The notes under the pieces: generated by a model
Databases searched by the model: none
Seen by the model: only the letters and a program-made list of their open reading frames with translations
Told to the model about the DNA's origin: nothing
DNA from: Acetobacter orientalis
GTDB lineage: Bacteria; Pseudomonadota; Alphaproteobacteria; Acetobacterales; Acetobacteraceae
Direction of reading: 5' to 3'
Length of the DNA stretch: 64,000 nt
NCBI RefSeq assembly: GCF_000963965.1
Contig: NZ_BAMX01000022.1
Span: 62,001 to 126,000 of the forward strand
Translations under genes and position numbers: made by a program
Shown here: positions 4,255 through 28,083 of the stretch, piece by piece
Numbering within the stretch: position 1 is the first letter of the stretch
How the letters are laid out: each line of letters begins with the position of its first letter

Positions 4255-5508
4255 ATGGTTGCGCACAGCAATATGGTAATAGATGGCCCAGCCCTTTGGC
4301 GTGACCTTATGGAAACCGCTCAATTTGGAGGCACCCCCAAAGGCGGTATATGCCGTTTGGCTTTATCTGATGAAGATGAAAAAGTAAGGGCATGGTTTAC
4401 CAAAACCTGCGAAAATTTGGGGTGTACGGTTACGTATGACTCAATGGGTAACCTGTTTGCCCGTAGGCCCGGTGCTCGTAACGATTTGCCCCCTATTATG
4501 ATGGGTAGCCACCTTGATACCCAACCAACGGGTGGCAAGTTTGATGGTATTTTAGGGGTATTGGGTGGGGTTGCCGTACTGCGTGCATTACATGCAGCAG
4601 GTATTACAACCCAACACCCTATAGAGGTTGTAAACTGGACAAATGAGGAAGGTGCACGCTTTACCCCCCCCATGTTGGCATCGGGCGTATTTGGTGGTGT
4701 GTTTACCCAAGAGTATGCACGGGGCCGGGCAGATAAAAACGGTATAACACTTGGCCAAGCCTTAGAGCAGGCTGGTTTTATTGGGCAAGAGCCATGTGGC
4801 CAGCACCCTGCCAGCGTCTATTTTGAACTGCATATTGAGCAAGGCCCCGTTTTGGAAGCCGAGCAGAAAACCATTGGCGTGGTAACCGGCGTGCAAGCCA
4901 TGCGATGGTATACCGTTACAGTGACTGGGCAAGATGCCCACGCTGGTACAACCCCCATGACCATGCGCTCAGACGCCTTGTGGGCAGCTGCCCGCATGAT
5001 AGATGGTGTGCACCAAGTTGCTATAAACCATGCGCCAGATGGCTTGGGTACTGTGGGTATTGTTGACTGCCAGCCGGGTAGCAGCAATGTAGTGCCGGGG
5101 CATGTGCAGTTTACAGTAGATTTACGCCACCCGACAGATAGTGTGCTGGAAGGTATGGAAAAAGAATTTTACGAAACACTTACCAATTTGGCAGAAACAT
5201 GTGGTGCGCAAATTGCCATTGAGCCAACATGGGTTTCTGCCGCTGTGCATTTTGACCCCTTCTGCCTTTCCTGTGTAGAAGAGAGTACGGAAAAATTGGG
5301 CTATTCGTCTCGTAAAATTGTATCTGGCGCAGGGCATGATGCTGTTTATGTTGCAAAAGTTGTACCCACAGCTATGATTTTTGTACCATGTTGGAAAGGC
5401 ATTAGCCACAACGAAGCAGAAAGTGCCGAACCGCAAGACGCAACAGCGGGGGCAAATGTTTTGCTACATGCTGTGTTACAAGCCGATGCACAGTTACTAG
5501 CTTCTTAA
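4255..5508 (+). CDS. Zn-dependent N-carbamoyl amino acid amidohydrolase (M20/HyuC-AllC family)
   Basis: 417-residue binuclear metallo-amidohydrolase of the hydantoin/carbamoylase (Zn-dependent hydrolase) family. Metal ligands are visible in GSHLDTQPTGG (His86, Asp88), KFDG (Asp98), NWTNEEG, HIEQGP, the HAGTTPM dimerisation-domain signature, GAGHDA and the terminal SHNEAE. The family hydrolyses N-carbamoyl amino acids, N-carbamoyl-beta-alanine or allantoate to amine, CO2 and ammonia. It is closely related along its whole length to the second copy at 17908-19182 in the pyrimidine operon. An AAAGGA ribosome binding site precedes the ATG. Here it follows a predicted deiminase, so a ureido acid is the expected substrate. 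A strong terminator follows. Confidence 0.85.
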   Translation: MVAHSNMVIDGPALWRDLMETAQFGGTPKGGICRLALSDEDEKVRAWFTKTCENLGCTVTYDSMGNLFARRPGARNDLPPIMMGSHLDTQPTGGKFDGILGVLGGVAVLRALHAAGITTQHPIEVVNWTNEEGARFTPPMLASGVFGGVFTQEYARGRADKNGITLGQALEQAGFIGQEPCGQHPASVYFELHIEQGPVLEAEQKTIGVVTGVQAMRWYTVTVTGQDAHAGTTPMTMRSDALWAAARMIDGVHQVAINHAPDGLGTVGIVDCQPGSSNVVPGHVQFTVDLRHPTDSVLEGMEKEFYETLTNLAETCGAQIAIEPTWVSAAVHFDPFCLSCVEESTEKLGYSSRKIVSGAGHDAVYVAKVVPTAMIFVPCWKGISHNEAESAEPQDATAGANVLLHAVLQADAQLLAS

Positions 5509-5620: not shown

Positions 5621-6529
5621 TTATTGTTGGATCAGTATTTTTTGAAAACTATCGTATATAACTTGCCGTAACCATGGGTTATCTGTTGCTTTTTGCCAAA
5701 GTAACGAGACAGTATAAGACCCTAAATCAAGCGGGGTTGGGCAAAGTGTAAGCCCTGATAGGGTGGCAAGACACTGGGCTGCATGTGCCGGGAGTGTTGC
5801 AACCGCACGTGTGCCTACCAAGAAGGGCGGCAGGGCTGAAAAATGAGTGAGTGCTGAGCGTACTTGGCGTGTAAGCCCATGTTGTTTTAAAACATGGTCA
5901 ACAATGCCTTCTCGTCCAGAAAATGAAACAAGCACGTGTGGCAGGGTCAGGTAGTCTTGCAGCGATAAGGGAAGGTCTATACCGCAGGCCTTTGGGTCAA
6001 GCAGGCAGGCATAACCAGATTGCCCAATCTCATGGTGTTGTAGCCCAGAGCGTAGGGCTGGTTGGGCAATTACTGCAAAATCAATTTCGCCCGCTTCAAA
6101 AAGAGATTCTACCTTATGTTTATTCGCTTGCCTAAACGTAAGAGAAACATGCGGTGCGGCTTGCGCCACTGTATGCGCAAGTAAAGGGCCTACCGCAATT
6201 TGAAAATCATCTGACATACCGATGGAAAAATGTTGGCGGCTTGTAGCGGGGTCAAAAGCGCTAATAGATGAAAAAGCCGTTTTAATAAGTGCTGTCCCAT
6301 TTTGGAGTGGCTCTACCATAGACACGGCACGGGGTGTTGGCTGCATGCCGGTGCGGGTGCGTACAAATAAGGCGTCATTTGCGGCATCGCGTAGGCGCGC
6401 AAGACTAGCACTGACCGCAGACTGGCTGAGAGAAAGCCTGCGGGCCGCTTTTGACACGCTGCGCTCCTCCCACAACACTAAAAAAATGGTGGCAAGATTA
6501 AAGTCGAGCCGAGACATAATATCACTCAT
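5621..6529 (-). CDS. LysR-family transcriptional regulator (NodD-like)
   Basis: 302 residues: HTH at the N-terminus (SRLDFNLATIFLVLWEERSV, AARRLSLSQSAVSASLARLR) followed by a NodD/PNR-type effector domain. The Met at residue 5 is an equally likely start because family members usually begin directly before the DFNL segment, and neither site has a clear ribosome binding site. The gene is divergent from the nitrilase at 6619 across 89 bases. It is therefore the likely regulator of that gene, although no inverted-repeat operator stands out in the gap. The effector is unknown. Confidence 0.82.
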   Translation of the reverse strand: MSDIMSRLDFNLATIFLVLWEERSVSKAARRLSLSQSAVSASLARLRDAANDALFVRTRTGMQPTPRAVSMVEPLQNGTALIKTAFSSISAFDPATSRQHFSIGMSDDFQIAVGPLLAHTVAQAAPHVSLTFRQANKHKVESLFEAGEIDFAVIAQPALRSGLQHHEIGQSGYACLLDPKACGIDLPLSLQDYLTLPHVLVSFSGREGIVDHVLKQHGLTRQVRSALTHFSALPPFLVGTRAVATLPAHAAQCLATLSGLTLCPTPLDLGSYTVSLLWQKATDNPWLRQVIYDSFQKILIQQ

Positions 6530-6618: not shown

Positions 6619-7593
6619 ATGAACATGACCCCCTTACGTGTTGCTGTTGTACAAGCCGGAACGTCACTTTTTGATACGCCCAAAACGTTAGAGCGTATGC
6701 AAGCGCACTGCGAGGCCGCAGCGGCATTAGGCGTTAAGTTGGTTGTTTTTCCTGAAGCTTATATTGGCGGCTACCCCAAGGGGTTAACGTTTGGCGCTGT
6801 TATGGGCAGCCGCTTTCCTGAAGGACGAGAGGAATATTTACGCTACTGGAAATCGGCCATTATGGTGCCGGGGCCAGAAACGGTGCAGATAGGCTCTTTT
6901 GCCGCCACTATGAAAGCGCATATTGTGGTGGGTGTTATAGAAAAAGAGGGAGCGACATTGTACTGTACGGCTCTTTTCTTTGGCCCAGACGGTGCGTTGC
7001 TTGGTAAACACCGTAAACTTATGCCCACCGCCACCGAACGACTGGTGTGGGGGCAGGGAGATGGCTCAACCCTGCCGGTGTTTGAGACGGAAGCTGGACG
7101 CTTGGGTGCCGCCATTTGCTGGGAAAATTATATGCCAGCCTTGCGGCAGAGCCTGTACGCGCAAGGCATTAATGTGTGGTGTGCTCCAACGGTAGATGAA
7201 CGAGACATCTGGCAAGCCTCCATGCGGCATATCGCGTATGAAGGGCGCACATTTGTTTTAAGCGCTTGCCAATACATGACCAGAGCTGATGCACCCGAGC
7301 AGTATGAGTGCCACCAAGGGCACAACCCAGAGACGGTGCTTATTAAAGGGGGGAGTGTTATTGTTAACCCCTTTGGCGAAATTATTGCAGGCCCGGTTTA
7401 TGACCGTGAGGCTATTTTAACGGCAGATATAGACCTAGATGACGTTATTCGGGCTAAATACGACCTAGATGTTGCCGGCCATTACGCGCGGCCAGATGTT
7501 TTTAGCTTGCAGGTTGATACAACGGCTAAAACCCCGGTTGCGTTTACAACGCAAGAAACAGGCCCGCTCTCCTTACCTGATGCCATAGAATAA
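6619..7593 (+). CDS. nitrilase (C-N hydrolase superfamily, branch 1)
   Basis: 324-residue thiol hydrolase with the Glu-Lys-Cys triad: Glu46 in FPEAYIGGYPKG, Lys133 in HRKLMPTATERLVWG, and Cys167 in CWENYMP. These motifs are those of true nitrilases that hydrolyse R-CN to carboxylate and ammonia, and differ from the amidase and beta-ureidopropionase branches. The ATG at 6619 lies 5 bases after GAGG. Single gene, divergent from a LysR regulator, with no partner downstream except rutR. The natural nitrile is unknown; release of ammonia or of an amino/ureido acid for the neighbouring pathways would fit the locus. Confidence 0.85.
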   Translation: MNMTPLRVAVVQAGTSLFDTPKTLERMQAHCEAAAALGVKLVVFPEAYIGGYPKGLTFGAVMGSRFPEGREEYLRYWKSAIMVPGPETVQIGSFAATMKAHIVVGVIEKEGATLYCTALFFGPDGALLGKHRKLMPTATERLVWGQGDGSTLPVFETEAGRLGAAICWENYMPALRQSLYAQGINVWCAPTVDERDIWQASMRHIAYEGRTFVLSACQYMTRADAPEQYECHQGHNPETVLIKGGSVIVNPFGEIIAGPVYDREAILTADIDLDDVIRAKYDLDVAGHYARPDVFSLQVDTTAKTPVAFTTQETGPLSLPDAIE

Positions 7594-7756: not shown

Positions 7757-8413
7757 ATGAGCGTGACAACAAAGACAAACCGTATTGCTGATGCTGGTGT
7801 GCCTAGGCGTAATAATACGCAGCGTATACTGACCGCCGCAGAGAAAATTTTTGCGGCGTATGGGCTGGCTGGGGCACGGATAGATGACATTGCCAAGGCT
7901 TGCGCGTTACCTAAAGCAAATATTCTTTACTATTTTGGCAGTAAAGAAGGGCTGTACCGTGCCACACTTGAGCGGTTGTTAGCCGGGTGGCTGGCCGATG
8001 CAGATGAATGGCTTACAATAGAACACGCCCCACGAGTTGGGTTGGAGGGGTACGTACGCGCAAAAATGCTGTTTTCGCGGCGTAAACCTGCGGCCTCTCG
8101 TTTATTTATGCATGAGCTTTTGGCCGGTGGTGGCTGTGTGCAAGACTTTTTGCGCACAACATTACGCGACTTTGTGCAAAGCAAAGCGCTTGTATTTGCC
8201 CACTGGCAAGAGCAAGGCCTATTTGCACCAATAGACCCGGCTCATTTTCTATTTCTATTATGGTCTACAACCCAAGCTTATGCAGATATGCAGGTTCAGT
8301 TTGCTGCGGTTTTAGGCCGCAAAAGCTTGAGCGTGGCAGACTTCGAAAAAGGAATAGAAACCCTTATGCAACTGGTTGATTCTGTTTGCTTGCCAAAAGA
8401 GGCAAACGGTTAA
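7757..8413 (+). CDS. rutR: TetR-family regulator, RutR-like (pyrimidine catabolism)
   Basis: 218 residues. The TetR HTH (ILTAAEKIFAAYGLAGARI, then DIAKACALPKANILYYFGSKEGLY) is followed by a YcdC-type C-terminal domain with SRLFMHELLAGG, HWQEQGLFAPIDPAHFLFLLW and TTQAYADMQVQ. These line up along the length with E. coli RutR (LLYYFPSKEALY, SRLFCMEMLAG, APIDPQHLIFMIWASTQHYAD). RutR is a repressor of pyrimidine-utilisation genes released by uracil/thymine. A near-consensus RutR operator lies at 9861-9876 in the promoter of the permease and dihydropyrimidinase genes, supporting the call. Its 3' end overlaps the convergent permease gene by 50 bases. The classical rut operon itself is absent from the window. 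Confidence 0.85.
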   Translation: MSVTTKTNRIADAGVPRRNNTQRILTAAEKIFAAYGLAGARIDDIAKACALPKANILYYFGSKEGLYRATLERLLAGWLADADEWLTIEHAPRVGLEGYVRAKMLFSRRKPAASRLFMHELLAGGGCVQDFLRTTLRDFVQSKALVFAHWQEQGLFAPIDPAHFLFLLWSTTQAYADMQVQFAAVLGRKSLSVADFEKGIETLMQLVDSVCLPKEANG

Positions 8414-9821
8414 GGCAAATATGCAGCAGTCCCCCTGCACAAAACCCAAAAAACCATGAAAAATTTTGTAAAGCAGCATAAGGCTGTACAAAAAGAACAA
8501 TAAGCCCACAACATACCCCAGCAATTAGAGAGAGAATTGCAAGGGGGTTAGTGCCATTTTTATACCAATAGGCGTCATTGGGGTTCATGGAATAAAGGGC
8601 GTTAGGCACTAGTTTTTGCTTTTGTACGCTGTAATAATCGGCCAATAAAATACCAATAAGCGGGGCAATAAAAGCGCCCAAAATGTCTAGAGTAAAATGT
8701 ATCAGCTCTGGCCGCGTGTAGAGGTTCCAAGGCATAACAATAATAGCGCCAAGTGCCGCAATAATACCGCCCCGCCGCCATGAAAGAATATGGGGGGCAA
8801 GGTTTGAAAAATCAAAAGCAGCAGAAACAAAATTTGCAGAAATATTAATGCCAATTGTTGCCGTTAAGAATGTAGCCATACCTACAATAAGCACGGTCAT
8901 ACTGTTAATTTGGGTTACGGTTTCAACCGGGTCTATAATAATGCGGCCAAATACTGGTTGGGTGAGGGCTATGGTTGCAAGTGTTAAAATAGAAAAACCC
9001 ATGAAATTAACAGGTAAGCCCCAGAAATTGCCCATTTTTATGTCGCGCATGGTTTTGCCGTAACGGGCAAAGTCACCAAAATTGAGGATAATGGGAGAGA
9101 AGAAAGCAATTGTAAGCGCCATAGCGTTTAAAATACCCAGCAGGCGTGGGGTAAAGCCGGTTTTTTCTACTGCGCCAAAAACATGAAAATTTATATGGCC
9201 ATGTGTTTGCCAAAGCAGCCAGCCGTCAAGCGCAATCATCATGACGTAAATAGTAGGGCCTGCCCAATCAATAAAATGCCGAATGGCGTCCATACCACGC
9301 CAAAAAATACAGAGTTGCAGCAGCCATACGGTCATGAACGTGGCCCACCCAAGGGGGGAAAGACCAATAAACCCATGGTGTGCGGTATCGGCCCACGGCG
9401 CTATTTGTGGCCAGAGCTTTAAGCCGAGAATAAGGAGCGCATTAGAAGCGAGCCATGTTTGGATACCGTACCACCCCACCGCAATAGCCCCGCGTACAAA
9501 CGCAGGCACTAAAGCGCCTTTAACACCAAACACCATGCGTATTGTAACGGGAAACGGCGTGCCTGATAGAAAGCTGGGTTTAGCCACCAAGTTACTGGCA
9601 ACCTGCACAATGCAAATAGCCAGAATAAGGGCTACAAAAACATCTTTAGCGGGCAGGCCCATGGCAAATAGGCTACCTGCGGTAACGTAGCCTGCAACGC
9701 TATGCACGTTAGACATCCATAAAAACAAGTAATCTGGCCATGCCCAACTGCGGGTTTTAATGGGGGCTAAATCATCGTTTATCAAATGGGTATCAGTCTG
9801 GACATCTGGGGGGACGGGCAT
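8364..9821 (-). CDS. NCS1-family nucleobase:cation symporter (uracil/allantoin/hydantoin permease type)
   Basis: About 485 residues, 12 predicted membrane segments. NCS1 signatures include TRSWAWPDYLFLWMSNVHSVAGYVTAG-like start, the SGTPFPVTIRMVFG segment, GWYGIQTWLAS, FSPIILNFGDFARYG, NISANFVSAAFD and the GIL-LADYY helix near the C-terminus. ATG at 9821 has AGGAAGA eight bases upstream, whereas the longer start at 9845 has none. It diverges from dihydropyrimidinase across a RutR-type operator, so it is the likely inner-membrane importer for uracil, dihydrouracil or a hydantoin. The 3' end overlaps rutR convergently. Confidence 0.88.
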   Translation of the reverse strand: MPVPPDVQTDTHLINDDLAPIKTRSWAWPDYLFLWMSNVHSVAGYVTAGSLFAMGLPAKDVFVALILAICIVQVASNLVAKPSFLSGTPFPVTIRMVFGVKGALVPAFVRGAIAVGWYGIQTWLASNALLILGLKLWPQIAPWADTAHHGFIGLSPLGWATFMTVWLLQLCIFWRGMDAIRHFIDWAGPTIYVMMIALDGWLLWQTHGHINFHVFGAVEKTGFTPRLLGILNAMALTIAFFSPIILNFGDFARYGKTMRDIKMGNFWGLPVNFMGFSILTLATIALTQPVFGRIIIDPVETVTQINSMTVLIVGMATFLTATIGINISANFVSAAFDFSNLAPHILSWRRGGIIAALGAIIVMPWNLYTRPELIHFTLDILGAFIAPLIGILLADYYSVQKQKLVPNALYSMNPNDAYWYKNGTNPLAILSLIAGVCCGLIVLFVQPYAALQNFSWFFGFCAGGLLHICLNRLPLLASKQNQPVA

Positions 9822-9860
9822 GGCGAGTCTTCCTGATTGGTGCATGTGCGGAATATATTA

Positions 9861-9914: not shown

Positions 9915-12392
<2,478 letters not shown>

Positions 12393-12653: not shown

Positions 12654-15053
12654 ATGCCTCTCATTCGAACATCTGCCACGCATCTACTTTTAACCGGAAC
12701 GTTTTTGGGTTCTGTTCTGCTTTCTCATGCAGCATCGGCACAAAGTGCCCCTACACATACAAAGCCAGTTCATCGTGCGGCACCTAAAAAGATTAAGCGT
12801 AATTATGGCCCGGTAAGTGCTACAAACTCACCTGAAGAAATACAGGTTGCAGGGTCTACAACCGTGCAAGGGGTTACACGCCACGCGCCGGGTGGTGGTC
12901 TTATGCGTGTGGAGTCTCGGGCCGGAACAATCCAGTCTGTAACACGAGATTTTATTGCAAAGCAGCCACCTTCTGCTAACCCTGTGCAAGTATTGGCACT
13001 GACCCCGAGTGCTTATGTGGCCCTTACAGAGCCTTACGGCATAGCTGGGGGTAATCTTATGCTCCGTGGTTTGCCCGGAGACCATGTCGGCTGGATTTAT
13101 AACGGCGCCCCAGTGAATGACGTGGGCGATGGTGGCTTTTACGCCAACCAGACTTCTGATGGTGATAACCTTAAATCTGTATCCTTAATGCCGGGCTCTG
13201 CTGATATTGATACGCCTAGTATTTCTGCCGCAGCGGGCAGTGCGTATGCAGAGCTTATTGACCCATCGCACAGGCGTGGGGGCTTTGTAGATTTTTCTTA
13301 CGGTTCTTATAATATGCACCGTGAGTTTGTGCGTTTAGAAAGTGGGGATATTGGTAATAGCGGCTTCCGTGCTTTTGCGTCTTTCTCCAACACAGCGGCA
13401 GACAACTGGCGTGGGCCGGGTAAGTTTACCCGTAAGCATGTTGACTTTAAAATGGTTAAGGATTTTAGCCCAGATAGCCATTGGAGCCTTAATGCGAGTT
13501 ATAACACCAATAATCTACAGCTCGACATGTACCCCACCAAAGAGCAGTTTGATAAATACGGTAAGCATTACGATTTTTCATCTAAATATGACCCCAATAA
13601 TAAAACAAGCTACCATAAATATGGGCTAGATGCTTTTCAGAACATGATTGCTTCTGCCCCGCTCTCTGTTAAATTAGCAGAAGGGCTGCGGTTTGATGAC
13701 ACGCCCTATTTGTGGTGGGGTTCTGGTACAATTGGCGGTGTCAGTACTGTAACAGATGGCCAGACTTTCTCTGGTAACCAGCCTGTTAATGTTGATGTTG
13801 CAAACGGCACAACAGTTTATACGCCGCTTTATTTTAGCTACCACCGTACAGGTAACAACGCCAAACTAACATGGAAACAAGGGGTTAACACCCTTACCTT
13901 TGGGTGGTGGTTTGAATGGTCTCGTACCAACCAGTCTACCCCTGTGTCTTATATTAACCAGCAAAATGGTGGCCCTGCGAATATTTATGGTGATTACGGG
14001 CCAAATATTTATAAAACGCAGGAAGGTAACCGTTGGTATTTGAATAACCACAACACCTTTACGCAAGTGAACATGCTTTATTTGGGCGATAAGCTAAGCC
14101 TACTGCATGATAAGCTGGAACTTCAAGCTGGTTTGCGGGTGGCTATGGTTAACCGCAAGGTTGATAGCTACGTGCCTAATATTCAACAAAAGCGTGCCCA
14201 AAACGTTTTTGAGCCGTTGCCCCAATTTAGTGCCAGTTACCGGTTTAATAGCCATCATCAACTTTATGTTTTGGGCACCACTAACTTTAAAATGCCTAAC
14301 AACAACACTATGTTTGAGCTGTATAACCTTGATGGCTCCATGTCTACAGCGCCCTCTGCTAACGTAAAACCCGAATATGCGATTGAAGAAGAAATAGGCT
14401 ACCGCTACCACGATGACCTATTTGTGGGTGAAATTTCTTTCTTTAACTATAACTTTACCAATAGACAGATGAGTGTGCTGAGCTACTTTGGTAGTGCACC
14501 AATGTCTACCACAATGAACGTGGGTAACCAGACCTCTCGCGGGGTTGATGTGCAGTTCGGTACGCGGCCCATTTTTGGGCATTTCCGTCCTTATGTAAGT
14601 TTTGAATATCTGGATGCGACAACAGACTCCAATATTCATTATTTGAATGATGATTTGCGGACAAAAGGGAAACGACCAGTAGGCACCCCGCACGAAATGG
14701 GTGCGCTCGGCATTGACTGGGATAACGGGCATATTTTTGCGAACTTGAACCTCAAATATATTGGGGCCCAGTACGCAACGCTCGTAAACGATGAAAAACT
14801 ACACCCCTATATTACGGATACGGTTACTCTTGGGTATAGGTTTTCTAACAAATGGCACCTTCGTGCACCTCAAATCCAGCTTAACTTCCAAAACCTAGCT
14901 GGCTCTCTCTATCGCAATGGTGTGTATTCTATGTCTCCGTTTGCGCATGCAACAACGGGGGTAAATGGTACCAATTATGGTGCGGGTTCTGCGCCAACTT
15001 ATACATTGTCTCCGGGGTTTGCGGTTTCATTCTCGCTTTCTACCGGTTTCTAA
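12654..15053 (+). CDS. TonB-dependent outer-membrane receptor
   Basis: 799 residues with a signal peptide ending near SHAASAQ, an N-terminal plug domain (SVTRDFIAKQPPSANPVQVLALTPS, LRGLPGDHVGWIYNGAPVNDVGDGG) and a C-terminal 22-strand barrel finishing in FSLSTGF with the expected terminal aromatic residue. GGAG and AAAGG lie upstream of the ATG. TonB receptors drive energy-dependent uptake across the outer membrane. It lies between dihydropyrimidinase and the preTA operon and has its own terminator, so it may import a pyrimidine base, nucleoside or related compound, but this rests on position only; an iron-siderophore role cannot be excluded. Confidence 0.88.
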   Translation: MPLIRTSATHLLLTGTFLGSVLLSHAASAQSAPTHTKPVHRAAPKKIKRNYGPVSATNSPEEIQVAGSTTVQGVTRHAPGGGLMRVESRAGTIQSVTRDFIAKQPPSANPVQVLALTPSAYVALTEPYGIAGGNLMLRGLPGDHVGWIYNGAPVNDVGDGGFYANQTSDGDNLKSVSLMPGSADIDTPSISAAAGSAYAELIDPSHRRGGFVDFSYGSYNMHREFVRLESGDIGNSGFRAFASFSNTAADNWRGPGKFTRKHVDFKMVKDFSPDSHWSLNASYNTNNLQLDMYPTKEQFDKYGKHYDFSSKYDPNNKTSYHKYGLDAFQNMIASAPLSVKLAEGLRFDDTPYLWWGSGTIGGVSTVTDGQTFSGNQPVNVDVANGTTVYTPLYFSYHRTGNNAKLTWKQGVNTLTFGWWFEWSRTNQSTPVSYINQQNGGPANIYGDYGPNIYKTQEGNRWYLNNHNTFTQVNMLYLGDKLSLLHDKLELQAGLRVAMVNRKVDSYVPNIQQKRAQNVFEPLPQFSASYRFNSHHQLYVLGTTNFKMPNNNTMFELYNLDGSMSTAPSANVKPEYAIEEEIGYRYHDDLFVGEISFFNYNFTNRQMSVLSYFGSAPMSTTMNVGNQTSRGVDVQFGTRPIFGHFRPYVSFEYLDATTDSNIHYLNDDLRTKGKRPVGTPHEMGALGIDWDNGHIFANLNLKYIGAQYATLVNDEKLHPYITDTVTLGYRFSNKWHLRAPQIQLNFQNLAGSLYRNGVYSMSPFAHATTGVNGTNYGAGSAPTYTLSPGFAVSFSLSTGF

Positions 15054-15077
15054 GGTTTCCTACTTTTGCCCTGTTTG

Positions 15078-15110
15078 ATCCTGCCTGTTGCCACAGGCAG
15101 GATTTTTTTT
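15078..15110 (+). terminator. rho-independent terminator after the TonB receptor
   Basis: 11-bp perfect stem ATCCTGCCTGT / ACAGGCAGGAT, TGCC loop, followed by eight Ts. Confidence 0.9.
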
Positions 15111-15238
15111 GAGGGCATACACAAGTTCAGCATGCAGTCTTTTTTTATAAAAGCTGAAAAGATGGTCAGAAAAACGTTGCGCAATCGTCTCTTTTGATCT
15201 TATCGTTACGAAATCGGAATTTCATGGAAGCAGCAGTT

Positions 15239-16588
15239 ATGAGAATCCCAGATACCATCTGTGGTCGCCTGAGTGAGGGAGAGCTGGCAGCCAATTTTGC
15301 TGATGCTCACCCCCCTCTAACGCATGCTCAAGCAGTAATAGAAGCAGAGCGCTGTTTTTATTGCTACGATGCCCCTTGTGTGCAGGCTTGTCCTACCAGC
15401 ATTGATATTCCTAAATTTATCAAGGCTATAGCCACCAACAATATGCAAGGCTCTGCACGGACTATTCTGGAGTCTAATATTTTGGGCGGGGCTTGTGCCC
15501 GCGTGTGCCCAACAGAAATTCTGTGCGAACAAAAATGTGTGCATACCGCGCGCGAAGCCGGGCAGGCTATCCGTATTGGTGCATTGCAGCGCCACGCCAC
15601 AGATTGGCAGATGGAGCATGGTGGCCAGCCTTTTACGCGTGCTGTTGCAACGGGTAAACGTATTGCCGTTGTGGGGGCTGGCCCAGCAGGTTTGGCGTGT
15701 GCGCACCGCCTTGCCATGCATGGCCATAATATTGATTTGATTGATACCCACACCTTGCCAGGTGGCCTGAACGAATACGGCGTTGCCGCTTACAAACTGG
15801 CAGATGACTTTGCTCAAAAAGAAGTAGATTTTCTTATGGCCATTGGAGGGATTACCTTCCAGGGTGGGCTGTCACTTGGCAAAGACTTTACCGTTGCCCA
15901 ATTACGCAAAGAGTATGATGCTGTTTTTCTTGCTGTGGGCCTAGCTGGCGTAAGAGCCATGGGTATTGAAGGTGAACAGCTTGATGGCGTGATGGATGCC
16001 GTTACTTTTATTGAAACTCTGCGCTCACAAGACAAAAAGACCGTGCCAGTTGGCCGCAGGGTTGTGGTTGTGGGCGGTGGTAACACGGCGGTTGATGCTG
16101 CGGTGCAGGCACGTCGCCTTGGTGCGGAAGATGTGTTTTTAGTTTACCGCCGTGGTCATGAGCAAATGTCCGCCACCACGGTTGAGCGGGAGTGGGCACA
16201 GACCAATGGCGTTACGGTTAAGCTGTGGGCTTCTCCTGTGCGTATTGTGTCTGAAAACGGTGTTTTGCGCGGCGTAGAGTTTGCCCGAGGTGCCATTGGC
16301 CCAGATGGTAGCATTGCCTACAACCCCGCCGACACCTTTATTATTGAAGCTGACATGGTGTTAAAGGCCGTAGGCCAGACATTTTTATCTACCCCCTTAC
16401 AAGCAGATACCATAGCCATAAGTGGTGGCCGCATTTTGGTAGATGACCAGTACCAGACCACAATGCAGGGTGTTTTTGCGGGTGGTGACTGTACGCCGGG
16501 TGAAGACCTGACTGTTGCTGCCGTGCGTGATGGCCGTGATGCGGCAGAGGCTATTCATGCCATGCTCTCTCAAAATTCTGGCCAATAA
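15239..16588 (+). CDS. preT: NAD-dependent dihydropyrimidine dehydrogenase, PreT subunit
   Basis: 449 residues from the ATG at 15239 (GGAAG eight bases upstream; in-frame starts at 15194 and 15224 exist). The N-terminal alpha-helical ferredoxin-like domain has the cysteine clusters AERCFYCYDAPCVQACPT and GACARVCP-TEILCEQKC for 4Fe-4S centres. It is followed by an FAD domain (VVGAGPAGLACA) and an NAD(P)H domain (VVGGGNTAVDAA), ending in the FAGGDC segment. This matches the GltD-like flavoprotein subunit that passes electrons from NAD(P)H to PreA. First gene of a five-gene operon for reductive uracil breakdown; preA follows after 12 bases. Confidence 0.92.
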   Translation: MRIPDTICGRLSEGELAANFADAHPPLTHAQAVIEAERCFYCYDAPCVQACPTSIDIPKFIKAIATNNMQGSARTILESNILGGACARVCPTEILCEQKCVHTAREAGQAIRIGALQRHATDWQMEHGGQPFTRAVATGKRIAVVGAGPAGLACAHRLAMHGHNIDLIDTHTLPGGLNEYGVAAYKLADDFAQKEVDFLMAIGGITFQGGLSLGKDFTVAQLRKEYDAVFLAVGLAGVRAMGIEGEQLDGVMDAVTFIETLRSQDKKTVPVGRRVVVVGGGNTAVDAAVQARRLGAEDVFLVYRRGHEQMSATTVEREWAQTNGVTVKLWASPVRIVSENGVLRGVEFARGAIGPDGSIAYNPADTFIIEADMVLKAVGQTFLSTPLQADTIAISGGRILVDDQYQTTMQGVFAGGDCTPGEDLTVAAVRDGRDAAEAIHAMLSQNSGQ

Positions 16589-16600
16589 AGGATAGAAACA

Positions 16601-17869
16601 ATGGCTGACCTGCGCACAACTTTTGCCGGTATTAAGTCTCCTAACCCTTTTTGGCTGGCCTCTGCCCCCCCAACAGATAAAGCCTATAACGTGCGCCGTG
16701 CGTTTGAGGCGGGCTGGGGTGGTGTTGTCTGGAAAACTTTGGGTGAAGACCCACCCGTGGTTAATGTAAGCTCTCGTTACGGGTCGCTAAACTATAACGG
16801 CAATCGTTTAATGGGGCTTAACAATATTGAGCTTATTTCAGACCGCCCACTGGCCGTTAACCTTGCAGAAATTAAGCAGGTTAAACGAGACTACCCAGAT
16901 AGAGCGGTAGTTGTCAGCCTTATGGTGCCCTGTGTTGAAGAAAGCTGGAAAGCCATTCTACCGTTGGTTGAAGAAACGGGGGCAGATGGTATCGAGCTCA
17001 ATTTTGGCTGCCCACATGGTATGTCTGAGCGAAATATGGGGGCTGCTGTAGGGCAGGTTCCAGAATATGTTGAAATGGTTACGCGGTGGTGTAAGCAATA
17101 CACCCGTATGCCGGTTATTGTTAAACTTACCCCTAATATTACCAATATTCTTATGCCAGCACTTGCTGCCAAACGGGGTGGGGCAGATGCCGTTTCTCTT
17201 ATCAACACCATTCAGTCTGTTATTGGTGTTGACCTAGACCAAATGGCCCCCATGCCTGTTGTAGGCGGTAAAGGCACACACGGTGGGTATTGTGGCCCAG
17301 CCGTTAAACCTATTGCCCTGCGTATGATTGGTGACATTGCCCGCCACCCAGAGCTGGCTGGTATTCCCATTTCTGGTATGGGTGGTATTGGTTCTTGGCG
17401 TGATGCCGCAGAGTTTTTAGCAATGGGTGCGACGACATTGCAGGTTTGTACGGCCGCAATGCACTATGGTTTCCGTATTGTTGATGACATGATAGATGGT
17501 CTTTCTAGCTGGATGGATCAAAAAGGGTATGCAGATATTCCCTCTGTTAGTGGGCAGGCTATTCCACGCTTTGTTAATTGGGGTAATTTAAACTTAAAAT
17601 TCAAAACACTTGCAGACATTAACCAAGATGCCTGCATTGGGTGTGGCTTATGCCATATCGCCTGCGAAGATACATCGCATCAGGCTATTTCAAAAACACT
17701 TGTTGATGGCAAAAACCATTATGAAGTGATTGATGAAGAGTGCGTAGGCTGCAACCTATGTGCGCATGTTTGCCCCATTGATGATTGTATTACCATGCAA
17801 CCTCAGCCTGTAGAAGGCGAGCTGACATGGCCAGAGCACCCCAATAACCCTAACCGGGTTACAGCGTAA
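16601..17869 (+). CDS. preA: NAD-dependent dihydropyrimidine dehydrogenase, PreA subunit
   Basis: 422 residues. An FMN-binding dihydroorotate dehydrogenase-like barrel (NPFWLASAPPTDK, ELNFGCPHGMSERNMG, VKLTPNITN, ISGMGGIGSW) is followed by two C-terminal 4Fe-4S motifs, CIGCGLCHIAC and CVGCNLCAHVCP. With PreT it reduces uracil and thymine to dihydro forms. The position of the mammalian enzyme's acid-catalyst cysteine (GLACGQ) reads GAAVGQ here, as I recall for other bacterial PreA proteins, so this is not a sign of inactivity. AAAGGA precedes the ATG. Middle of the pyrimidine operon. Confidence 0.92.
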   Translation: MADLRTTFAGIKSPNPFWLASAPPTDKAYNVRRAFEAGWGGVVWKTLGEDPPVVNVSSRYGSLNYNGNRLMGLNNIELISDRPLAVNLAEIKQVKRDYPDRAVVVSLMVPCVEESWKAILPLVEETGADGIELNFGCPHGMSERNMGAAVGQVPEYVEMVTRWCKQYTRMPVIVKLTPNITNILMPALAAKRGGADAVSLINTIQSVIGVDLDQMAPMPVVGGKGTHGGYCGPAVKPIALRMIGDIARHPELAGIPISGMGGIGSWRDAAEFLAMGATTLQVCTAAMHYGFRIVDDMIDGLSSWMDQKGYADIPSVSGQAIPRFVNWGNLNLKFKTLADINQDACIGCGLCHIACEDTSHQAISKTLVDGKNHYEVIDEECVGCNLCAHVCPIDDCITMQPQPVEGELTWPEHPNNPNRVTA

Positions 17870-17907
17870 ATTACGGTTTGAGTAGTGTATTAAAGCGGAG
17901 AAAAGGT

Positions 17908-19182
17908 ATGTCTCAGGTAGGTTTTACAGGTAAAAATAATAACCTTTGTGTAGATGGTCAGGCACTTTGGGCAGACCTTATGCAAACAGCAGAGTTTGGT
18001 GGCACACCTAAAGGGGGTGTAAAGCGCCTGACATTAACGCACGAAGATAAGCTGGTGCGTGACTGGTTTATAAAAACCTGTAAAGAGCTGGGCTGTACAG
18101 TTTCTTATGACTCTATGGGCAACTTGTTTGCCCGCCGTGCTGGGCAGGATAATACGCTTGCTCCTATTACTATGGGTAGCCATCTTGATACGCAGCCAAC
18201 GGGCGGTAAGTTTGATGGGATTTTGGGTGTATTAGGGGGGCTGTCGGTGCTCCGTGCGCTGCATAAATCTGGTTATGTAACACGCCACCCTATTGAGCTT
18301 ATTAACTGGACAAACGAGGAAGGCTCACGTTTTTCTCCTCCCATGATGTGCTCAGGCGTTTTTGCTGGTATTTTTAAAGAAGAAGATATTCTGGAAAAAC
18401 GTGACCGTGCGGGCATTCGTTTTCAAGACGAATTAGAAAAAATTGGTTATCGGGGTGAGGAAAAATGCGGTGAGCACCCTCTGGCGGCTTATTTTGAGTT
18501 GCACATTGAACAAGGCCCAATTTTAGAGTCTGAAGAAAAAACGATTGGTATTGTTACAGGTATTCAGGGTGCGCGGTGGTATGAAGTAACCGTAACCGGC
18601 AAAGATGCCCACGCAGGCTCTACTCCTATGCCGCTACGGCACGATGCACTGGTAGCCGCCGCAGGTATGATTACGGCTACCAGTCAGGTTGCCAAAGCGC
18701 ATGCTCCCTCTGCGGTAGGGACTGTTGGTCTTTTGGAAAACCGGCCTAATAGCAGCAACGTTGTGCCGGGTGAGGTTTTCTTTACTATTGATATTCGCGA
18801 CCCTAACGATGCGGTTGTGCTAGAAATGGAAAAAGAACTGCTGGCTCGTATTAAAACGATTGCAGAAGAAAACAACGTGAGCGTAGATGTTGTGCAGATT
18901 TGGGATGCCCCTGCGGTGCATTTCAACAAAGATTGTGTTGCGATAGTTGAACAAGCTGCAACAGAGGGCAAATATCTTGCCCGCCGTATTGTTTCTGGCC
19001 CCGGCCATGATGCAGGTTATATGGCACACGTAACCCCAACTGCTATGATTTTTGTGCCCTGTAAAGATGGCCTAAGCCATAACGAAGCTGAAAGTATTTT
19101 GGAACAAGATGCAACAGCAGGCGCAAATGTTTTACTTGAAGCCGTTTTAAAAGCTGATAGCTTTTTTAATAAAGCGGAGTAG
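17908..19182 (+). CDS. N-carbamoyl-beta-alanine amidohydrolase (beta-ureidopropionase, M20 type)
   Basis: 424 residues from the ATG at 17908, which has GGAG eight bases upstream; an in-frame TTG at 17878 lacks support. Same family and nearly the same motifs as the copy at 4255: GSHLDTQPTGGKFDG, NWTNEEGSRF, HIEQGP, DAHAGSTPM, GPGHDAGY and LSHNEAE. In this operon it follows PreTA and precedes the beta-alanine aminotransferase, so the third step of reductive pyrimidine catabolism (N-carbamoyl-beta-alanine to beta-alanine, CO2 and ammonia) is the natural assignment. Substrate preference within the family is not readable from sequence alone. Confidence 0.9.
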   Translation: MSQVGFTGKNNNLCVDGQALWADLMQTAEFGGTPKGGVKRLTLTHEDKLVRDWFIKTCKELGCTVSYDSMGNLFARRAGQDNTLAPITMGSHLDTQPTGGKFDGILGVLGGLSVLRALHKSGYVTRHPIELINWTNEEGSRFSPPMMCSGVFAGIFKEEDILEKRDRAGIRFQDELEKIGYRGEEKCGEHPLAAYFELHIEQGPILESEEKTIGIVTGIQGARWYEVTVTGKDAHAGSTPMPLRHDALVAAAGMITATSQVAKAHAPSAVGTVGLLENRPNSSNVVPGEVFFTIDIRDPNDAVVLEMEKELLARIKTIAEENNVSVDVVQIWDAPAVHFNKDCVAIVEQAATEGKYLARRIVSGPGHDAGYMAHVTPTAMIFVPCKDGLSHNEAESILEQDATAGANVLLEAVLKADSFFNKAE

Positions 19183-19255: not shown

Positions 19256-20593
19256 GTGAGCAATTTTGATAGTGTGGCAACAGTAAAAAAGGGCACTTAC
19301 TGGCAGCCCTTTACCGCAAACCGGTTGTTGCAGGCCAACTCACCCCCTCGTACTTTGGTCGCTGCTAAAGGCGCCTATTACGAGAATGTTGAGGGCCAGA
19401 AACTGTTTGATACGCTGTCTGGCTTGTGGTGTACTCCCCTTGGGCATGCTCACCCTTTAATTGCGGAAGCTGTTAAAAAACAGGTCGATACACTCGATTT
19501 TGCTCCCTCTTTTCAGATGACGCATAATAACGCGCTCTCGCTTGCGCAGCGTATTGCAGATATGGCCCCAGAAGGCATGAACCACGTGTTCTTTGCTAAT
19601 TCTGGCTCAGAGTCTGTTGATACGGCACTCAAGGTCGCGCTTGGTTACCACCGTATTAAAGGGGCAGGAAACCGCTTTCGTATGATCGGGCGGGAGCGGG
19701 GCTACCACGGTGTAGGTTTTGGCGGCATGTCTGTTGGGGGTATTCTCTCCAACCGTAAAATGTTTGCGCCGTGCATGATGCCCGGCGTAGATCACCTGCG
19801 GCATACTTACGCACCAGAGCATATGGCCTTTACCCGTGGGCAGCCAACATGGGGAGCAGACTACGCCGAAGACCTAGAGCGTTTAGTGGCTTTGCATGAT
19901 GCCTCAACCATAGCGGCTGTTATTGTAGAACCTGTGCAGGGGTCTACAGGGGTTATTGTGCCGCCACTTGGCTATTTACAACGCCTGCGTGAAATTTGCA
20001 CAAAGCACGGTATCCTTCTTATTTTTGATGAAGTTATCAGCGGTTTTGGCCGTATGGGTGCGCCATTTGCCGCACAGCGTTTTGGCGTTACACCTGACAT
20101 TATTACCTTTGCTAAAGCGGTTACAAACGGCATTGTGCCCATGGGCGGGGTTATTGTAACAGACGAAATTTATAAAACGTTCATGACCGGCCCGCAAAAC
20201 GCCATTGAGTTCTGCCATGGTTATACTTATTCGGGCCACCCCTTGGCTGCTGCCGTCGGTCATGTTGTGCTAGACGTTATGGAAAGCGAAGGCTTGTTTG
20301 AGCGTGTTGCGGCTCTTGAGCCTGTGTTGGAAGATGCCGCCCATAGTCTGGCCGATGTGCCGCAAGTGGCAGATATTCGTAATATTGGCCTGACCGCAGC
20401 GATTGAGCTCAAACCTGCACAAGAAGGTGTTGGCGTGCGTGGTTTAGCCGTGTTTGAAGAAGCGCTCAAACAAGGGCAACTGTTGCGCGTAACCGGTGAT
20501 ATTATTTCTTTCGGGCCGCCCTTTATTGCAACAGAAAACGAGCTAAAAAATATGATGCAAACTGTGCGTAAAGTCATTGAAACTGTTGGTTAA
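19256..20593 (+). CDS. beta-alanine:pyruvate aminotransferase (class III, omega-amino acid)
   Basis: 445 residues starting at a GTG with GAAAGGG 9 bases upstream. Class III PLP aminotransferase motifs: WQPFTANR, NSGSESVDTALK, GYHGVGFGGMSVGG, EPVQGSTGV, FDEVISGFGRMG and the PLP lysine Lys287 in TFAKAVTNG. Closely resembles omega-amino acid:pyruvate transaminases, which convert beta-alanine and pyruvate to malonate semialdehyde and alanine. It lies between the carbamoylase and a malonate semialdehyde decarboxylase homologue, so both substrate and product fit the neighbours. Confidence 0.88.
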   Translation: MSNFDSVATVKKGTYWQPFTANRLLQANSPPRTLVAAKGAYYENVEGQKLFDTLSGLWCTPLGHAHPLIAEAVKKQVDTLDFAPSFQMTHNNALSLAQRIADMAPEGMNHVFFANSGSESVDTALKVALGYHRIKGAGNRFRMIGRERGYHGVGFGGMSVGGILSNRKMFAPCMMPGVDHLRHTYAPEHMAFTRGQPTWGADYAEDLERLVALHDASTIAAVIVEPVQGSTGVIVPPLGYLQRLREICTKHGILLIFDEVISGFGRMGAPFAAQRFGVTPDIITFAKAVTNGIVPMGGVIVTDEIYKTFMTGPQNAIEFCHGYTYSGHPLAAAVGHVVLDVMESEGLFERVAALEPVLEDAAHSLADVPQVADIRNIGLTAAIELKPAQEGVGVRGLAVFEEALKQGQLLRVTGDIISFGPPFIATENELKNMMQTVRKVIETVG

Positions 20594-20642
20594 TGCAGCT
20601 TGTAAAATATTTCTTGTATAATTGTTAAAAAGGAAAAAAGTT

Positions 20643-21035
20643 ATGCCTTTGCTTCATTTTCACCTTATTAAAGGGAGCAGAACAACAGACGAAGTGGGCA
20701 CTCTGCTTGATGCTGCTCATGGTGCCATGTTGGCTGCTTTTAAAGTGCCAGAACGTGACCGGTATCAACTTGTGTCTGAGCATGATGCAACACACATGAT
20801 CATTCAGGACACTGGGCTTGATATTCCAAGAACAAACAAAGTTGTTTTGCTGCAAGTGGTCTCACGCCCACGGCCGAAAGAGCAAATAGCAGAATTTTAC
20901 CGCTTATTGGCAGAAGCACTCGAAACAAAATGTGGGCTTAAACCGTCAGACTTAATGGTTTCAATTGTTCAAAATGCAGATGAACACTGGAGCTTTGGCT
21001 GGGGCCGTGCCCAGTTTTTAACTGGGGAGCTATAA
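20643..21035 (+). CDS. malonate semialdehyde decarboxylase (tautomerase superfamily)
   Basis: 130 residues starting at ATG 20643 with AAAGG upstream. Met removal would expose the catalytic N-terminal Pro (PLLHFHLIKG). The rest matches the Pseudomonas malonate semialdehyde decarboxylase as I remember it: PERDRYQ with the catalytic Asp (38 after Met removal), SRPR with both substrate-binding arginines (74 and 76), and WSFGWGRAQFLTGEL at the C-terminus. These enzymes turn malonate semialdehyde into acetaldehyde and CO2. Placed as the last gene of the pyrimidine operon, directly after the aminotransferase that would make malonate semialdehyde. A promiscuous tautomerase is the alternative, but the residue set favours the decarboxylase. 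A terminator follows. Confidence 0.88.
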   Translation: MPLLHFHLIKGSRTTDEVGTLLDAAHGAMLAAFKVPERDRYQLVSEHDATHMIIQDTGLDIPRTNKVVLLQVVSRPRPKEQIAEFYRLLAEALETKCGLKPSDLMVSIVQNADEHWSFGWGRAQFLTGEL

Positions 21036-21055
21036 TTTAATTATTTTTACATTTT

Positions 21056-21092
21056 ACCACTAAGAATAATATAGATTCTTAGTGGTGTTTTT
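21056..21092 (+). terminator. rho-independent terminator of the pyrimidine operon
   Basis: 12-bp perfect stem ACCACTAAGAAT / ATTCTTAGTGGT with a seven-base AT-rich loop and T run, 20 bases after the decarboxylase stop. The remaining gap to 21356 holds a second inverted repeat (CAGAGACCT 21190-21198 / AGGTCTCTG 21210-21218) without a T run, and no convincing gene. Confidence 0.85.
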
Positions 21093-25881: not shown

Positions 25882-28083
25882 CTAAATCGTGTTTTTGTCT
25901 TCATTAAAAAAATATTGTGAAAATGGATAGCGCCTACATCTTGTGCCTGTCGCGTTAAAAAGCGCATTCCCTAGCGATGGAAATGCGGCAGTCGTGCCAA
26001 CCTCTCCAATACCGCCAGGGTTTTCTGTACTTTTGATAATATGAACGTCAATTGGTGGTGCTTCATTAATTCTCATAAGCGGATAATTATGAAAATTACT
26101 CTGCTCTATACGTCCATTTTTTATGGTTATTTCGCTATAAAGGGCTGCACTAAAGCCAAACAGTAACCCACCTTCTATTTGTGCTTTAATAGTATCAAGG
26201 TTAACGGCTATACCACAATCTATAACGGCTGTTACCTTTGTTATGGCAATATATTTTTTATCTGTCACCATCACTTCAGTAACAACTGCGCAGTGGGTAC
26301 CAAAAGCATTATGTAATGCTACTCCACGGCCCGTGCCCGAGGGTAAGGGTTTACTCCATTGGCTCTCTTGTGCAACACGTTTTAGTAGAGCTACAGAACG
26401 AGGGTTTTTACGTAAAAGATGTAGTCTGTAATCTAATGGGTCATTATCTGTTGCGGTCGCTAGTTCATCTATAAAGCTTTCTACCACATAAACATTATGC
26501 GCTGGGCCTACGCCACGCCACCACCCAACGGGCACTGGGGTTTCAGCGCGCGTCCAAGTTACAAACATTTGTGGTAAGTCATACGGTGTATCCACAGCCC
26601 CTGCTACGGCGTCTGAATCGAGCTTGCCTAGAGGGAGGCCACCTGGTGTAAACCGATCGACAACTGAAGGGCCGCTTACATGGTGCTGCCAAGAGAGCGG
26701 CTGCCCGTCTTGGCCAAGTGTTGCGCTAATACGGTCATAATATGCTGGGCGAAAAAGGTCTTGGCGTATATCTTCCTCACGGCTCCAGATAAATTTTACT
26801 GGGCGCGAAACCTGGCAGGCAAAGTGCGTTGCCTGTTCCAAAAAATCTGTTGCTAATCTACGCCCAAAACTACCACCTATCATGTGATTATGAATGGCAA
26901 TTTTTTCTTGGGGTAAGCCTGTTACCTGTGCAACCGCAGCACGAGCACGTGTTGGCACTTGTGTGCCCATCCAAACATCGCAGCCATCTGCGCGTACATG
27001 TACAGTTACGTTAGCCGGTTCCATCGGAGTATGAGATAAAAACGGGAGTTCATAAGCGGCTTCTAGTTTTCTACCTTCAACAGAAGCATCCTCCGCTCTT
27101 TCATCGCGCGCAATAACCTCTGGAACAGAGAGGGAGGCGTCACGAATGGTTTTTCGAATGTCTATAGAAGAGAGAGAAGCCTCTTTTCCCTCTAACCATG
27201 TAACCTTAAGAGCACCTAACCCTTTTTTCGCTGTCCAGTAATTTTTTGCGATAACGGCAACGGCTGTATCCGTTTTTAGAACGTCCAGAACACCAGGAAT
27301 ATTTTTGCAGAGCGTGTCATCGATAAAGCGAACTTTAGCACCAAGCGATGGTGGCCCCATAATAGTGCCAATCACCATGTCTGGTATACGGACATCAATT
27401 CCGAAAACAGCTGTTCCGTTTGTTTTTGCAGGGATATCTAAGCGTGGAAAAGACTTGCCTATAAGTTTCCAGTCATCGGCGGCCTTGAGCGGCACTACTT
27501 GGGGTATGTTCTGTCGTGCTGCTTCAGCTGCAAATTCACCATATTTTGCACAACGCTGGCCAGTATGATCTTTTATGTAACCGTTTTCAGCTACGAGAAA
27601 ACGTTGCTCAGTGTTCCAACGGGTAGCTGCTGCGGCAAGAAGCATTAGTCTAGCAGTTGCGCCAGCTTGCCGTAAGGGCACCCAGCCTTTGCGCACCGAA
27701 CGCGAGCCGCCTGTTGAGAGTGATTTAAGGAATTCTGGTGCAAATTCACTCACGTCTTGTGGGAGTGCTGGCAGCACAGTAATGTCGTTGGGGTCTACTT
27801 CTAACTCTTCTGCAATAATGATAGCTTCAGTTGTATAAATGCCTTGCCCCATTTCAACGTTGGGAACAATGAGAGAGATTTGATTGTCACTCCCAATACG
27901 AACAACACCGCCAAGTGTGACATCTGATGAAGGGGGGGGATTTAGGTTTGTCTGTGCTAAGGCGCCTTTACCGCAGGCGGAAGGGAGGGCTGCAAAAGCA
28001 AGTGCGATTCCCCCTCCCAAAAAGTGGCGCCTTAAGAGAGAGCCTAAAGCATTATCGGCTTTACTAACGAAAAGAGAAGACAT
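25882..28083 (-). CDS. xanthine dehydrogenase family molybdopterin-binding subunit (IorB/aldehyde dehydrogenase large-subunit type)
   Basis: 733 residues. A twin-arginine-like signal (LLRRHFLGGGIALAFAALPSA) suggests Tat export. Molybdopterin-binding segments follow: VEMGQGIYTTEAIIIAEEL, TGGSRSVR, HTPMEPANVTVHV, GGSFGRRLATDF, GWWRGVGP, and the catalytic Glu694 in GGIGEVGT. This is the isoquinoline 1-oxidoreductase beta / membrane aldehyde dehydrogenase large-subunit type, which normally works with a small 2Fe-2S subunit and often cytochromes c. No 2Fe-2S partner gene is adjacent, so the complex must use a distant partner or none. Substrate likely an aldehyde or N-heterocycle, unknown. Confidence 0.85.
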   Translation of the reverse strand: MSSLFVSKADNALGSLLRRHFLGGGIALAFAALPSACGKGALAQTNLNPPPSSDVTLGGVVRIGSDNQISLIVPNVEMGQGIYTTEAIIIAEELEVDPNDITVLPALPQDVSEFAPEFLKSLSTGGSRSVRKGWVPLRQAGATARLMLLAAAATRWNTEQRFLVAENGYIKDHTGQRCAKYGEFAAEAARQNIPQVVPLKAADDWKLIGKSFPRLDIPAKTNGTAVFGIDVRIPDMVIGTIMGPPSLGAKVRFIDDTLCKNIPGVLDVLKTDTAVAVIAKNYWTAKKGLGALKVTWLEGKEASLSSIDIRKTIRDASLSVPEVIARDERAEDASVEGRKLEAAYELPFLSHTPMEPANVTVHVRADGCDVWMGTQVPTRARAAVAQVTGLPQEKIAIHNHMIGGSFGRRLATDFLEQATHFACQVSRPVKFIWSREEDIRQDLFRPAYYDRISATLGQDGQPLSWQHHVSGPSVVDRFTPGGLPLGKLDSDAVAGAVDTPYDLPQMFVTWTRAETPVPVGWWRGVGPAHNVYVVESFIDELATATDNDPLDYRLHLLRKNPRSVALLKRVAQESQWSKPLPSGTGRGVALHNAFGTHCAVVTEVMVTDKKYIAITKVTAVIDCGIAVNLDTIKAQIEGGLLFGFSAALYSEITIKNGRIEQSNFHNYPLMRINEAPPIDVHIIKSTENPGGIGEVGTTAAFPSLGNALFNATGTRCRRYPFSQYFFNEDKNTI

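Follow-up and report, generated by a model that had tools for sequence, protein, structure and literature searches.

A predicted malonate semialdehyde decarboxylase as the likely last step of reductive uracil catabolism in Acetobacter orientalis

Malonate semialdehyde decarboxylase (MSAD) is known mainly from the breakdown of a man-made fumigant. Extended routes of the pyrimidine pathway have reportedly been put forward by Yin in 2019 and by Zhu in 2020. The gene clusters of reductive pyrimidine (Pyd) catabolism include a malonic semialdehyde dehydrogenase or reductase, as stated in the available part of one report (PMC7332683). In the MSAD of Pseudomonas pavonaceae, Asp37, Arg73 and Arg75 aid catalysis alongside Pro1, according to the available part of another (PMC11641302). 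None of the listed matches among titles and opening lines of abstracts of open-licence papers linked MSAD to pyrimidine or beta-alanine catabolism, and an earlier mention is possible; the words 'pyrimidine', 'beta-alanine' and 'operon' are absent from the available part of PMC10606566.

The window analyzed here is a stretch of 64,000 nucleotides from Acetobacter orientalis (assembly GCF_000963965.1, contig NZ_BAMX01000022.1, positions 62,001 to 126,000). It carries a set of uracil genes (Table 1), the last of which encodes a protein of 130 amino acids that opens with ATG-CCT and begins MPLLHFHL. This ATG lies at 20643; a longer ORF with a TTG start at 20622 would bury the N-terminal proline. 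The protein exceeds the cut-offs of the Pfam families Tautomerase_2 (90.9 bits) and Tautomerase (35.8 bits) and matches no NCBIfam family at E 0.001. At the same threshold, PDB matches were confined to three distinct sequences, all named MSAD (2aag, 8e-41; 2aaj, 1.8e-39; and FG41 3mjz, 3.1e-20). Identity to the P. pavonaceae MSAD of solved structure is 55%, and the closest MSAD among named organisms is that of Acetobacter peroxydans (86%). In the alignment, with numbering from Pro1, Asp38, Arg74 and Arg76 correspond to Asp37, Arg73 and Arg75 of the P. pavonaceae enzyme, the shift being due to one inserted residue. These three residues and Pro1 are invariant in all 53 aligned rows, that of P. 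pavonaceae MSAD among them, as are W115, F117 and F124; the rows, which contain repeats, were gathered through similarity and do not count as independent. In the active site of the P. pavonaceae enzyme, the equivalents of W115, F117 and F124 presumably line the hydrophobic side. Proline follows the start methionine in 53 of 53 rows, and an N-terminal Pro1 assumes that this methionine is removed. An AlphaFold2 monomer (mean pLDDT 86.6) matched the two-unit beta-alpha-beta MSAD fold, with 2aag and 2aaj as the best PDB entries (TM 0.87, 55% identity), followed by FG41 MSAD (33%). Differences from four relatives at first, second and third codon positions (24/11/77, 24/11/83, 32/12/67 and 29/10/84, of 130 each) indicate purifying selection on the gene. 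The preliminary description had proposed a tautomerase-superfamily protein with MSAD residues, and the Pfam and PDB matches, the aligned residues and the predicted fold all confirm it. By these measures the protein is an MSAD, which would be expected to catalyze the decarboxylation.

Table 1. Uracil-related genes of the window and the hairpin that follows them
Feature	Coordinates	Strand	Evidence
RutR-type TetR regulator, family resemblance only	7757..8413	+	TIGR03613 163.7 bits (below cut-off 368); NF011584 144.6 bits (below cut-off 230)
NCS1 nucleobase permease, possibly for uracil uptake	8364..9845	-	TIGR00800 248 bits, below cut-off 353
Dihydropyrimidinase (hydA)	9954..11354	+	TIGR02033 609 bits, cut-off 393
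TonB-dependent receptor, between hydA and preT	12654..15053	+	Pfam Plug, TonB_dep_Rec_b-barrel
preT, dihydropyrimidine dehydrogenase NAD-binding subunit	15194..16588	+	Pfam Fer4_20 'dihydropyrimidine dehydrogenase domain II', Pyr_redox_2; adjoins preA
preA, dihydropyrimidine dehydrogenase catalytic subunit	16601..17869	+	NF006183 716 bits, cut-off 335
Carbamoylase, start codon uncertain	17878..19182	+	NF006769 599 bits, cut-off 452
Omega-aminotransferase, beta-alanine:pyruvate type	19256..20593	+	NF052567 AptA 646 bits, cut-off 500
MSAD	20643..21035	+	Pfam, PDB, alignment, predicted fold
Terminator-like hairpin, directly 3' of MSAD	21055..21087	+	13 pairs, loop 7, T-run tail TTTTTATAGT

The five genes from preT to MSAD are co-directional, with gaps between ORF boundaries of 12, 8, 73 and 49 bases, some of the starts being uncertain. 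The best NCBIfam match of preT is below cut-off and the gene was assigned through its Pfam domains; it more likely starts at one of two in-frame ATGs, 15224 or 15239, than at the listed position. The closest PDB entries of the carbamoylase are the uncharacterized amidases 5thw and 5i4m, followed by N-carbamoyl-beta-alanine amidohydrolase 8c46 (E 4.9e-114) and beta-alanine synthase 1r3n (E 1.1e-88), and the protein is probably an N-carbamoyl-beta-alanine amidohydrolase. The three closest entries of the aminotransferase (4uhm, 4b98 and 3a8u) are omega-amino acid or beta-alanine:pyruvate transaminases, and it has no close paralogue in the genome, where the runner-up reaches 184 bits and 33% identity. 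Since every pathway family was matched between 9954 and 20593, the gene set leading from uracil to malonate semialdehyde is complete ahead of MSAD, with uracil-derived substrates assigned to the enzymes as their families suggest. The claim that the operon ends with MSAD was borne out by the order preT, preA, carbamoylase, aminotransferase and MSAD followed by the terminator-like hairpin; that of a complete route in one locus holds for the genes, which cover every step from uracil, the last reaction being a predicted one. Another terminator-like hairpin (15077-15104) lies after the TonB-dependent receptor gene, ahead of preT. Terminator-like sites are close to chance in number (16 found against 12.9 expected), and the argument from the hairpin behind MSAD therefore rests on its placement and stem length.

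The surroundings of these genes offer further observations. The NCS1 permease gene adjoins hydA also at seven other loci (L025, L026 and L050-L054). Between hydA and preT, the receptor, whose position suggests a role in the pathway, is accompanied by a protein of 347 amino acids (11349-12392) with no NCBIfam match at 1e-15. The two occupy this position in L051-L054 as well, which may point to a pyrimidine-type compound being taken up across the outer membrane. The uracil genes are closely preceded by a second carbamoylase-family amidase (4255-5508), a LysR regulator (5621-6529) and a nitrilase-family protein (6619-7593), which suggest a wider catabolic region for cyclic amides or ureides.

In the route that we propose, uracil would be reduced by PreTA, its ring opened by dihydropyrimidinase and the product decarbamoylated to beta-alanine. 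The aminotransferase would transfer the amino group of beta-alanine to pyruvate, yielding alanine and malonate semialdehyde, which MSAD would split into acetaldehyde and CO2. Protonated Pro1 would serve as its general acid, in an active site that includes Asp38 and both arginines. This ending would very probably yield acetaldehyde rather than acetyl-CoA, and the MSAD step would require neither CoA nor NAD. Malonate semialdehyde decarboxylates spontaneously too, so MSAD may only speed the step. The acetaldehyde would then be oxidized in the way usual for aldehydes in an acetic acid bacterium and leave as acetate; the fit of such an ending to this group, pointed out in the preliminary description, is taken up here, as the variant would suit a specialist in aldehyde oxidation.

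A dehydrogenase had been named as the usual end of reductive pyrimidine pathways, and the distribution of methylmalonate-semialdehyde dehydrogenase (MMSDH, TIGR01722) agrees with this. Among the 385 genomes of a sample of the class, preA was found in 62 (E 1e-100), MMSDH above cut-off in 201 and both in 54. MMSDH thus occurs in 54 of the 62 preA genomes against 147 of the 323 without preA (Fisher p 5.5e-10, kinship ignored), and in at least eight of the 62 it lies on the same strand within about 6 kb of preA, as in L098 and L099. From its presence in 54 of 62 preA genomes, MMSDH is the common ending in the class, and the lineage of the window differs. The genome of the window, estimated to be 100% complete, has no MMSDH match above cut-off: five places match the model, all below it, the best with 294 against 448.5 bits. 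It is one of eight preA genomes of the sample in this state, together with seven others. MSAD was detected (E 1e-25) in three of the 385 genomes and in none of the 61 preA genomes other than that of the window.

A narrower genus set of 37 genomes, including that of the window, was searched for MSAD at E 0.001 and for preA at 800 bits or more. MSAD was found in 29 of them (once as a fragment) and preA in 14. MSAD lies in the preTA cluster in four of these 14 (the genome of the window, G029, G015 and G027), elsewhere in nine, and is lacking in one. This exception, G011, carries preTA with MMSDH 1.5 kb from preA and has no MSAD at E 0.001, and the slot beside preTA appears to be occupied there by MMSDH in place of MSAD. 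A strict exchange of the two enzymes was rejected, as 13 of the 16 MMSDH genomes of the set carry MSAD too. An exclusive tie of MSAD to preTA was likewise rejected, since 16 of its 29 MSAD genomes are without preA. Three Gluconobacter genomes with preTA and MSAD have no MMSDH above cut-off; the Acetobacter pasteurianus genome has one.

The context of MSAD was read at 31 of the 32 genus-set places outside the genome of the window, leaving out a 46-residue fragment at a contig end in G020, and neighbors were counted by tblastn. Directly upstream of MSAD stands the aminotransferase at 16 of the 31 loci, the carbamoylase at two and neither at 13; among loci of named organisms, the aminotransferase takes this place in 11 of 20. 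The gap between aminotransferase and MSAD is 21-50 bp in all 28 measured pairs. Since L059 and L073 repeat places already counted in G002 and G035, 27 distinct pairs remain, the window counted, and their flanks change from one to another. Genes for preTA and MSAD share a locus in the window and in L022, L025, L026, L060, L063, L066 and L067, the aminotransferase being absent from L025 and L026. The search for the same gene beside preTA elsewhere, which the preliminary description had suggested, found it in A. pasteurianus LMG 1262, Gluconobacter cadivus, G. wancherniae and G. roseus, and also in genus-set genomes G029, G015 and G027. In Gluconobacter the pair lies with preTA in all three loci examined. 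A link of MSAD to the aminotransferase across the Pseudomonadota was not found: the pair occurs in one of 14 loci of a phylum sample (L083) and in none of the six named loci outside acetic acid bacteria (L072 and L074-L078). A midpoint-rooted MSAD tree groups 39 rows of acetic acid bacteria in one clade (support 98/92); since the pair is present on each of its two main branches, it is probably old in these bacteria. Second MSAD copies in G006 and G025 (L048 and L049) fall outside the clade and have no aminotransferase alongside. The aminotransferase at L020:6624-7948 is in two overlapping pieces and looks frameshifted, or reflects an assembly error.

Taken as the end of a pyrimidine pathway, MSAD was supported in the window, while the original idea had to be refined: the enzyme appears coupled to beta-alanine transamination generally and to preTA only sometimes. 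We regard the aminotransferase-MSAD pair as a functional unit that probably also takes beta-alanine of other origin. It would constitute a beta-alanine-to-acetaldehyde module of acetic acid bacteria, placed in some of them at the end of the uracil genes or together with these.

The neighbors of the pair bear on this product. In L021, L023, L027 and L030, the same-strand genes after MSAD encode 2Fe-2S, molybdopterin and cytochrome c subunits of aldehyde-dehydrogenase type, identified by Pfam in L030 and by similarity in the other three. Ethanolamine ammonia-lyase (EutB and EutC), an enzyme that makes acetaldehyde, is encoded near the pair in L038-L044, the families having been verified on L073, the same place as L043. 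An ethanolamine permease is present in six of these seven; the stretch of L041 has none, and EutB is there 5.5 kb away on the other strand. Two Asaia loci have a permease and an aldehyde dehydrogenase after the pair, with NCBIfam matches below cut-offs in L071. Such surroundings are consistent with acetaldehyde as the product of MSAD, a fit rather than a proof. In the window itself, the large subunit of a molybdopterin aldehyde dehydrogenase type is encoded at 25882-28083; it is 48% identical to the L030 subunit and is its closest match in the genome. A MocR-type regulator (a GntR/aminotransferase fusion, confirmed by Pfam on L019) is found near many of the pairs (L019-L024, L030, L037, L060, L063, L065-L071 and L083), mostly divergent from the pair and on the same strand in L037, and is a candidate beta-alanine sensor. 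In the window, no regulator of this type lies between the aminotransferase gene and the preceding gene. MSAD homologues with 52-71% identity also occur near genes for an IlvD/Edd-type dehydratase and an HpcH/HpaI aldolase (L046, L047 and L062; L091 has HpcH without IlvD). These settings suggest additional pathways for MSAD or for a relative that acts on a different substrate, and a second role in sugar-acid breakdown is possible.

Malonate semialdehyde could instead be mainly reduced to 3-hydroxypropionate by an enzyme of RutE/PydE type, or oxidized by a general aldehyde dehydrogenase, with MSAD clearing the excess. The genome indeed holds, besides the five sub-cut-off matches to the MMSDH model, a RutE-family malonic semialdehyde reductase (NF003768, 271 bits, cut-off 152). 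Nevertheless, its gene lies away from the uracil genes, among neighbors that look housekeeping when their ORFs are read by eye, and the gene kept closely behind the aminotransferase in relatives is that of MSAD; we consider such a division of labor unlikely. More doubtful still is an MSAD-fold enzyme that acts on some other beta-oxo acid, or on a hydratase or tautomerase substrate, and stands behind the aminotransferase by accident. The available part of PMC5818174 describes most proteins of the MSAD subgroup as uncharacterized, with other activities possible, and the homologues beside IlvD and HpcH genes would accord with this, whereas the MSAD catalytic residues tested are all retained and the accompanying aminotransferase belongs to the type that converts beta-alanine to malonate semialdehyde. 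That MSAD is unrelated to the operon and its neighborhood a matter of chance is very improbable: while 13 of the 31 genus-set loci show neither aminotransferase nor carbamoylase beside MSAD, the 27 distinct pairs persist amid varying flanks, one of them outside the family (L083), and in the window the hairpin comes immediately after the gene. We consider it likely that the gene encodes a true MSAD and that this enzyme carries out the final step in the reductive catabolism of uracil.

The conserved pair, together with the known pathway genes, would give MSAD a specific native role and bacterial uracil and beta-alanine catabolism a third ending; in acetic acid bacteria, it would connect the use of nucleobases with acetaldehyde and acetate. 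We also lean towards a broader reading, in which MSAD is native and general in these bacteria and forms, with a dedicated beta-alanine aminotransferase, an acetaldehyde-releasing module that supplies respiratory aldehyde oxidation and can take the place of a CoA-acylating malonate semialdehyde dehydrogenase. If this is true, the MSAD of xenobiotic pathways would be a recruit from such core metabolism.

Compared with the MSAD of P. pavonaceae 170 (PDB 2aag, 2aal and 2aaj), the protein of the window shows homology over its full length at the identity given above, the same fold, and Pro1, the aspartate and the two arginines in register. However, the P. pavonaceae enzyme serves the degradation of 1,3-dichloropropene, whereas that of the window is encoded in a uracil operon, behind a beta-alanine-type aminotransferase. 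FG41 MSAD from a coryneform bacterium (PDB 3mjz) shares the fold and the named reaction and is more distant, with 33% identity in the structure comparison. With the Pyd pathway, the locus has in common dihydropyrimidine dehydrogenase, dihydropyrimidinase, a ureidopropionase-type carbamoylase and a beta-alanine aminotransferase; the final step of that pathway is a dehydrogenase or a reductase, while in the window it is very probably a decarboxylation to acetaldehyde. The preTA clusters of other Alphaproteobacteria share the early genes and carry MMSDH where the window has MSAD.
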